A stretch of DNA of 64,000 bases from Enchytraeus crypticus (lineage: Eukaryota; Annelida; Clitellata; Enchytraeida; Enchytraeidae), in contig CAJHZI010000520.1 of assembly GCA_905160935.1 (NCBI GenBank), positions 364,501 through 428,500 on the forward strand, written 5' to 3'. The translations under genes were made by a program, and so were the position numbers. The notes under the pieces were generated by a model. That model saw only the letters and a list, made by a program, of their open reading frames with translations. It was not told the DNA's origin and did not search any database. This document shows positions 6,701-56,573 of the stretch, one piece after another. The stretch's first letter is position 1. Every line of letters begins with the position of its first letter.

Positions 6701-9700
6701 ATGATATATATGTAATGTATATATGATATTATATGATATTATGTATATATGATATTATATGATATTATATGATATTATGTATATATGATATTATATGATA
6801 TTATGTATATATGATATTATATGATATTATATGATATATGATATATATGATATTATATGATATATGATATATATGATATATATGATATTATATGATATTA
6901 TGTATATATGATATTATATGATATTATATGATATATATGTAATGTAATATATTATGATATTATGTTTTAGAGTAGAAAGATAGTTAGATATTCGTTTATT
7001 GTTACGGTCAGAAGCAAATCTCCTTGTCTCTAAAACTGAGCGATACATTTAAGCTACCGTTACATTGACTGGTTCATATTAACGGTAGGTCCTGTTCCCC
7101 TGACATCTAAAAAGCTAAAGCTAATGTTAACATCTGTTTCCTCACTCGAAAGCGATGTCAGTGACGGACGAGCTCAGGATTTTACCCCCGCAAGCAATGA
7201 TCCGAGATCGAATATCTTACCTACATCACCACTGGCTCCAGCCGTGGCGATGTCGAATCACATCTCTGCCTATGATATCCTATCCGACATCTTTCCATGA
7301 TAACATTTTAAACATGAGTTCTTGTGTAACATACATGATTTTGCATGGTATACCCGCTGTTACATTTTCTACAGAAATCATGTTAATTTGCATATATTAC
7401 TCCTGAAAACACACAGTAGATTAAAGCTTCTGAAGCAGAACATTGATCATATCGTTAGCTTTATTTCAAGTGCAGACTTTGTAGGCATGGAGTGTATAAA
7501 AGGAGTTTGCACTATTGAGTGCAAACATGAGATTTCTATGGATTTAGAAGACTTAGCTGTTTGATATTCTGATAAATGCCAAGTAGGAAGCTTAATAAAT
7601 TAATAATAAAATTTATGGACCCTGGATTAGTCAATAAGTAGGGTCAGTTCGAAGTACGGATTCTTTTATAGAAATGATTGTTTGATACTTTGAATAATTG
7701 ATTGATGCTTTGTCTGATTGATTGATTGATGTTTTGCCTGATTGATTGATGCTTTGCCTGATTGATTTCTGACAGGGAGTAGAGCTGGCTAAACGAATCA
7801 GGGATGAAGAAAGGGGCGGAAAAGCTCATATCAGTGTTGTAGGTTAGTATTAAATATACAGAAAAAAAAAAAAAAAATAATCCCCTAGCGAAATCTCAAT
7901 AACTTTTAAGAAAACTCAAAATATCTCTACGAAATTTTCGGAGCTTCTAGGGGAGGAATTTTTGCGTATATCCTGCAAATTTGATGAAACTATTTTCATT
8001 AGTTACGAAATTACAGCATATCTACGAGAAAAGTGCTAAAATCAATTTTAACAAGGCTTTTCGAAATGTCAGTCGTTCCTTTTAAAGAAAATAACGAGCC
8101 TGAAAAGGGCCGTTTACGTAAGTGGTGGAGTTTAAGCCTGCAGTACCTTGTTAGCTGCTCCAATAAATGATGCTTAAAATTCGTTCTTATGTTAAAATTA
8201 TTCCTAAATTTTGAAGAAAATGTCCTGTACTTTTGTTTAAAAAGCCTTGTTAAAATTGATTTTAACATTTTTTTAGAAGAAACGCTGTATTTTTGTTACT
8301 TCTGAATATATTTTCACCAAATTTGCACGATAAGTGTAGAAATTCCTCCTCTGGAGGCTCTGAGAATTTTGTAAAACTATTTTGAGTTTTGTCCAAGTTA
8401 TCAAGACTTTTGGCAAAAAAACCGTGTTAAAACTAATTTTACAATTTTTTCGTAGAAACGCTGTAATATTTTTCCTGCTCAATAGATTTTCATTAAATTT
8501 TCAGGATATGCCCAGAAATTCCTCTCCTAGACGCTCCGCAAATTTCGTGAGAAATTTTGAGTTTTCGTAAAGTTATTGAGTTCTCGCTAGAGGATTATTT
8601 TTTTTTGCCCAGTCTGTATATTTCTCTCTCTCTCTCTCTCTCCCTAGTATTATCCTCTAATCCTAAGACCTAAATTCATGCAATATTACAATCACATACC
8701 TATCCAGTCTAACGTCAAGCCTCAGACTCTCATTGCTAACCTCTCGACACATTCAAGCTACCATTCTCACAAAATTCAAAACTCATAAATCTTCTTCATG
8801 CGAATAATCGAAAATTAATCTTTATAAGGCGACTGCTTATTTCCCAGAGGCAGCTATATTAAGTACCTTAAAGTATATTGTAATACCTTTTCGTTATTAT
8901 TTTTATAATATGAATCAATTCTATTTCTTTTGTATCATTTTAGTTAATTTTTTTCTATCAATCAATAAATGAAATGGATTCTTTTGTGCTAGAGGAAGAC
9001 TGGAACACGAATGAGGAGTTCTTCAATGCTCTGGGCAAGAGAGAGAAGGTCATCAGAGCTGCCAGTGACCAAGATGATGATGACATCATTCGAAGAATTG
9101 ATCAGGAAATGGTTCTCTATGAGTAAGTTATCAGGGGTTATGTATTAGTAAGTTATCAGGGGTTCTCTACGAATATGTTCTCAGGGGATTAGTACAAGTG
9201 AGTCTTCAAGAAATCTGAGTGTGTAAGTTATCAAGTGATCTTTATAAGGTATATTTTATAAGATATTTACAGATTTTGTCATGGATTTGTCCATCTGAAA
9301 ATGTATGGAATGATTGATTAATTGTGCCTTTAATTGATTGATTGGTAACATAGAATCCTGGAGATTAATCGTGCATTTAATTGATTGATTGGTAACATAG
9401 AATCCTGGAGATTAATCGTGCATTTAATTAATTAATTGGTAACATAGAATCCTGGAGATTAATCGTGCATTTAATTTATTGATTGGTAACATAGAATCCT
9501 GGAGATTAATCGTGCATTTAATTTATTGATTGGTAACATAGAATCCTGGAGATTAATCGTGCATTTAATTGATTGATTGGTAACATAGGATCCTGGACGC
9601 CACAGATGAGAGAGAGGAACAGATTAATCCGGTGGCTCAGAAGCCATTGAAGCAATCTCTGCTCAACTCTAAGGTTACCATTCAGTAATTCCTGTTCATT

Positions 9701-56573: not shown

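Follow-up and report, generated by a model that had tools for sequence, protein, structure and literature searches.

Tandem repeats that copy an exon–intron boundary have been described in amphioxus under the name of mirages, which are minisatellite-like tandem copies of the intron–exon boundary and occur at both 5′ and 3′ boundaries (PMC3087553). They are reported from Adh3, from the globins BflGb6 and BflGb9 and from troponin C (PMC3087553, PMC3902484), the last being added as a case in a paper that also likens the repeats of PGBD5 to mirages (PMC3902484). In Adh3 the units measure 10–72 bp (PMC3087553), and the unit lengths reported are 10–72 and 150–160 bp (PMC3087553, PMC3902484). AG or GT is preserved in many, not all, of the copies (PMC3087553, PMC3902484); haplotypes differ in copy number, and regular splicing seems, on the data, to go undisturbed (PMC3087553). 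Further marks of mirages are instability in length, somatic instability included, and homogenisation within the array from which the end copy is excluded (PMC3087553, PMC3902484). Among the matches listed for “mirage” as a term for boundary repeats, only amphioxus papers appear; reports from elsewhere may exist.

The arrays described here lie in one stretch of 64,000 nucleotides of DNA from Enchytraeus crypticus (the window; all positions are those of the window), and four of their sequence features match the amphioxus structures, which suggests that they are of the mirage type. The tandem unit spans the exon–intron boundary and includes exon bases at ten edges, one of them weak; the units are 15–123 bp long, with diverged copies 82–167 bp apart at one donor (34489); both kinds of boundary are represented, with five donors and five acceptors; and AG or GT is kept in 34 of the 47 listed copies. 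An initial annotation of this DNA knew of no named class for such arrays; the amphioxus reports supply one (PMC3087553, PMC3902484). Unlike the amphioxus cases, those found here are from a lophotrochozoan, occupy ten edges in two genes, and are known from the sequence of a single assembly.

Two other systems are close enough to need comparison. Intron gain through tandem genomic duplication has reportedly been described by Rogers, and by Zhuo in 2007. In this model the duplication copies splice signals, and duplicates of the boundary are predicted (PMC2891723, PMC4974935). Though tandem duplication copies splice signals in both situations, in the model two copies flank a new intron, whereas here an existing intron has all of its copies at a single end. 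Direct repeats have also been seen near intron splice sites, where they are short, occur at both intron borders and are read as footprints of insertion (PMC11782384). These resemble the present arrays in lying close to intron–exon borders, but are short border pairs and not arrays.

We rebuilt the models of the three genes in the window, namely most of a villin/advillin gene (232–25600, plus strand, 23 exons), a mitochondrial carrier gene (28533–30628, 3 exons) and ARHGAP39 (55828–33314, minus strand, 15 exons), for a total of 41 exons and 78 exon edges. All reading frames are without internal stops. RhoGAP, MyTH4 and mitochondrial carrier domains score above the Pfam cut-offs and a WW match falls below its own; villin, which was outside that scan, matches the sequence of a villin structure (1.4e-171). 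Among the best database villins are P0003, on a 1,833-base contig that we take to be a transcript and 92% identical across 70% of the query, and P0001 (66%), and the closest named villin, among the best 120 of 1,029 matches, is that of Capitella teleta (56%). The proteins of relatives bear out the models at most of the edges treated here, though around acceptor 46700 they vary too much for a judgement, and the alignment to P0003 runs without an insertion where donors 15458 and 18679 are used. The start of villin exon 8 was set at 9589, within the last copy of a 47-bp array, by the residues and length of relatives; an acceptor at 9613, used in a first model, was dropped, as relatives have extra residues there and 9589 fits their length. 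In ARHGAP39 an upstream acceptor at 38423 resolved the gap between 40054 and 38391, for which a micro-exon had been sought (72 candidates, four fitting the pattern, none convincing). The exon numbers of the initial annotation are one off from these models, and we infer the correspondence between the two.

Several other features lie within or among these genes. Villin intron 13 holds, in antisense, a 309-codon open frame that encodes a protein kinase domain (13984–14913, minus strand; Pfam 1e-35), possibly a nested retrogene, and villin intron 19 holds one of 545 codons with a reverse transcriptase domain (19897–21534, plus strand). A series of broken, LINE-like open frames extends over 50061–52424 (plus strand); the two of them compared with Pfam gave no match. 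Within the coding sequence of ARHGAP39 exon 6 a 39-bp unit, or 13 residues (FSVSGRG...), is repeated in tandem and in frame (44752–44831, minus strand). A dispersed element, recognised by eye at about 1010–1100, 2490–2585, 12840–12920, 23965–24060 and 55030–55150, carries a motif that we take to resemble a tRNA B box, and is possibly a SINE.

Boundary copies were sought on the intron side of all 78 edges with a gapped, junction-anchored scan, using a score of 20 as the cut; an ungapped scan missed donor 18679, which the gapped scan detected. Junction-spanning arrays are present at 10 of the 78 edges (13%), all in villin and ARHGAP39, where about a quarter of junctions had initially been claimed. 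Four are in villin, on the plus strand. The donor of the seventh villin exon in the window (9122/9123) adjoins a 25-bp array at 9111–9187 (TRF; score 25) with about 12 exonic bases per unit, in which the copy at +25 keeps its GT and that at +50 has lost it. At the other end of the same intron, six copies of a 47-bp unit (9316–9597; TRF) lead up to acceptor 9588/9589, the last copy consisting of the real acceptor plus 9 exonic bases; villin intron 7 thus bears arrays at both ends, with units unrelated to each other. Donor 15458/15459 carries six copies of a 44-bp unit (15428–15691; TRF; score 56) with 31 exonic bases each and an additional higher-order period of 132 bp. Donor 18679/18680 has a 41/42-bp array (18675–18846; TRF; score 26) whose exonic part, at least 22 bases, codes for ILDTHDE and was placed by protein alignment.

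The remaining six are in ARHGAP39, on the minus strand. Eight copies of a 26-bp unit with 10 exonic bases each adjoin donor 55727 (55527–55736; TRF; score 40), and a 123-bp unit is present twice at acceptor 55828 (55789–55980, ends approximate; score 35), including about 40 exonic bases from the region of EWVQIVEPR. Acceptor 46700 lies in a 100-bp duplication of 1.9 copies with 58 exonic bases (46643–46834; TRF; score 44), and AG is kept in the copy acceptor. A 34-bp array adjoins acceptor 35508 (35497–35989; TRF; score 22), with about 7–11 exonic bases and AG kept in 5 of 12 copies. The array at donor 34489 is old and diverged (33983–34509; score 25); GT is kept in three of its four copies, and its 21 exonic bases code for RFLQ, which is invariant in the alignment. 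The weak case is acceptor 43062 (43056–43290), which is matched, with 6 exonic bases, by the unit of a 15-bp array at 43170–43290. Its score of 15 is under the cut and individually non-significant, AG is kept in three of four copies, and the 108 bp between acceptor and array look by eye like a stretch of dispersed repeat.

The 34-bp array of 35521–35989 recurs at 37402–37722 in another ARHGAP39 intron with an almost identical flank, as if it might have been copied within the gene; only the first adjoins a splice site. The last villin acceptor, 25486, is directly preceded by an (ATTGT)n array (25168–25486), which the start of its exon resembles (score 22). Being a match to a pentanucleotide repeat, this edge is not regarded as a mirage, though it is counted in the statistics; several edges with scan scores of 12–16 were taken as noise.

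Of the ten junctions in the initial annotation, seven (9122, 15458, 18679, 55727, 34489, 46700 and 35508) are upheld by the gapped scan and the listing of copies, and 43062 holds weakly. The other two failed: at villin exon 6 (acceptor 7776) the array ends at 7767 and its unit has neither an AG nor exon bases, and the array near ARHGAP39 donor 40054 reaches only to 40050, within the intron. Acceptors 9589 and 55828 had been overlooked. The central idea, that the arrays are copies of exon–intron boundaries, is borne out by copies listed at all ten edges and by conserved residues coded in some of the exonic parts. That the functional site is the exon-side end copy, with the array extending intronward, is likewise true of all ten, and follows from the definition used and from selection on the coding sequence. 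The units, which had been called unrelated to each other, appear so by eye apart from the common unit and flank of the arrays at 35521–35989 and 37402–37722.

Scored with a matrix built from the window's non-array donors, all seven copies at donor 55727 equal the real donor; at donor 15458, GT is kept in all six listed copies, the sixth of which lies beyond the TRF array, and four of the six have the real donor's exact score. At acceptor 9589 all five upstream copies keep AG, with scores of 2.4–4.9 compared to 4.6 at the real site. Use of an intact copy would bring an in-frame stop in every one of the 33 tested of the 34 (18 donor and 15 acceptor copies), the frame of the upstream exon, which is outside the window, being assumed at 55828; AT-rich introns would often give such stops anyway, so this is no proof of selection.

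The arrays are best explained, with a probability of about three in four, as minisatellites of the mirage type, produced by local duplications together with selection that holds the outermost copy. A short local tandem duplication would by chance span an exon–intron boundary, and slippage or unequal crossing-over would later add copies on the intron side. Selection at the protein level would keep the outermost, exon-joined copy, while the inner copies would drift as intron; as some decoys equal the real site in motif strength, splicing is assumed to stay at the exon-joined site through exon definition. Conserved residues coded by some of the exonic parts (RFLQ at 34489 and ILDTHDE at 18679, for example) show that the arrays there derive from the exon, the coding copy having come first, and the 132-bp higher-order period at 15428–15691 is consistent with slippage by several units or unequal exchange. 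The raw material is plentiful, since arrays of period 10 or more make up 13% of the noncoding DNA in the window (TRF). The initial annotation also suggested serial duplication that is tolerated only as long as an intact outer copy is left, and this agrees with all ten cases. Two observations count against the mirage explanation. Homogenisation with the end copy excluded is clear only at acceptor 9589 (0.89 for the exon part and 1.00 among the copies), three other arrays being slightly opposite (0.91 against 0.83 at 55727, 0.90 against 0.88 at 15458 and 0.82 against 0.79 at 34489). In addition, the number of arrays exceeds the matched null described below by about 2.5–4.5 fold, more than a purely neutral model would account for, unless the frozen exon copy were to prolong the time over which an array can be detected.

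Part of this excess might be secondary to microsatellites at exon edges, chiefly (GATT)n at acceptors, that seed or stabilise larger duplications. The most enriched 8-mer at −45 to −4 before acceptors is GATTGATT, found at 8 of 40 compared to 0.7% of random positions, and the enrichment of GATT at acceptors has a p-value of 5e-10 with a 40-base stretch. Of 18 (AATC)n/(GATT)n tracts of at least 12 bp, 10 are no more than 60 bp from an exon edge, where 1.6 are expected and the maximum in 400 trials of random placement was 5; some of the 18 are pieces of one array, so not all are independent. The ten (835–872, 7697–7767, 9568–9579, 10339–10414, 17103–17115, 33527–33633, 46348–46401, 46720–46734, 55303–55513 and 55831–55845) are at seven acceptors and three donors, and every one reads AATC outward from the exon. 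Other lengths give a similar picture, with 14 of 38 tracts of at least 8 bp near edges (3.3 expected; 13 of the 14 outward) and 6 of 11 of at least 20 bp (0.9 expected; all six outward). For nine other repeat units only raw counts within 60 bp, without expectation, are given: AT 3/17, AG 1/21, AAT 3/18, AAAT 2/10, ATC 2/8, ATAC 0/2 and GATA 0/1, with small classes that are high too (AATT 3/7, TTGTA 2/5). The GATT pattern was found and tested on the same data, and the donor cases are few. Among the papers listed on repeats at acceptors, none deals in its title or opening abstract lines with (GATT)n at that place. Of the five acceptor mirages, three (9589, 55828 and 46700) have such tracts, as do 8 of the 40 acceptors overall, but the five donor mirages all lack them, and five GATT acceptors (p 6e-6) are without a mirage. 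We regard seeding by these tracts as a tentative possibility.

A process acting at splice boundaries, such as reverse splicing, R-loop-linked slippage or break repair, could also raise the rate of tandem duplication there, and it is the count of arrays that bears on it. Our matched null takes a random noncoding position and a random direction, and requires a copy in that direction but not in the opposite one; we sampled 6,000 of the 51,567 noncoding positions, of which 504 fell in microsatellites and were excluded, leaving 5,496. At a score of at least 20, a fraction of 0.040 of these positions pass, and the 10 of 78 edges seen, which include the pentanucleotide match at 25486, exceed the expected 3.1 (p 0.001); an intron-only null expects 4.0 (p 0.007). 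With low-complexity sites dropped, five edges among them, the count is 9 of 73 compared to 1.6 (p 3e-5) or 2.1 (p 2e-4). A stricter cut of 30 gives 5 of 78 (1.9 expected, p 0.04, or 2.5, p 0.11), and a looser one of 14 gives 13 of 78 (6.7, p 0.016, or 7.3, p 0.03). TRF arrays of score 50 or more are at 6 edges where 2.3 are expected (p 0.03; 0.015–0.04 at other cuts), and donors alone, at 5 of 38, have p-values of 0.017–0.045 at score 20. The counts at score 20, those by TRF and those of donors alone favour a boundary process. However, a null that admits interior array positions expects 9.3 and shows no excess (p 0.45), or, with low-complexity sites dropped, expects 3.8–5.3 where 9 are seen (p 0.014–0.08). 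Leaving out the GATT acceptors reduces the count to 7 of 70 (p 0.02 and 0.07 under the respective nulls), and 6 of 69 remain once the pentanucleotide case is dropped as well (p 0.06 and 0.15 at score 20; 0.02–0.21 at cuts of 18–22). The sample is also one window, chosen by a reader who had noticed its repeats. We read the excess over the matched null, some 2.5–4.5 fold at score 20 depending on null and filter, as likely but modest, and a frozen exon copy, if it kept old arrays visible for longer, would itself raise the count. What speaks for the boundary process put forward in the initial annotation (reverse splicing, R-loops) is this modest excess, and we consider the process unlikely.

The arrays might instead have been left behind when introns arose through tandem genomic duplication of an AGGT site, a model that predicts duplicates at the boundary (PMC4974935, PMC2891723). 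The ends of the introns do not match as this would require: similarity between donor and acceptor is not in excess, since a single intron of the 38 exceeds the 95% level given by 1,406 cross pairs, and the units at the two ends of villin intron 7 are unrelated. We rejected this origin as very improbable. Tandem arrays are prone to assembly artefacts, but that an assembler created or collapsed these copies is scarcely credible when copies differ within several arrays (by 20–35% at 34489), though others, such as those at 55727, are nearly identical.

The mirages and the GATT tracts may also have something in common. TTGAT fits the branch-point pattern YTNAY, and the GATT strand at acceptors could accordingly offer possible branch points in series. 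On this reading of the motifs, TTGAT is likely to serve at acceptors as the branch point and the tract as the U-rich stretch; the three donor cases are outside it. We would raise, as a speculative proposal, that this lineage makes or keeps several kinds of tandem repeat at exon edges, giving both mirages above the neutral rate and outward (AATC)n on both sides of exons, and that repeat expansion at acceptors might replace the normal 3′ splice signals.

The mirage, a little-known phenomenon that among the papers found is named for amphioxus only, is extended by these arrays to a lophotrochozoan, with many cases in two genes. The decoys, up to seven of which have the real donor's score, are natural tests of the spliceosome's choice of the exon-joined site. 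If (GATT)n at acceptors were to hold true genome-wide, it would be a clear link of microsatellites to 3′ splice signals.
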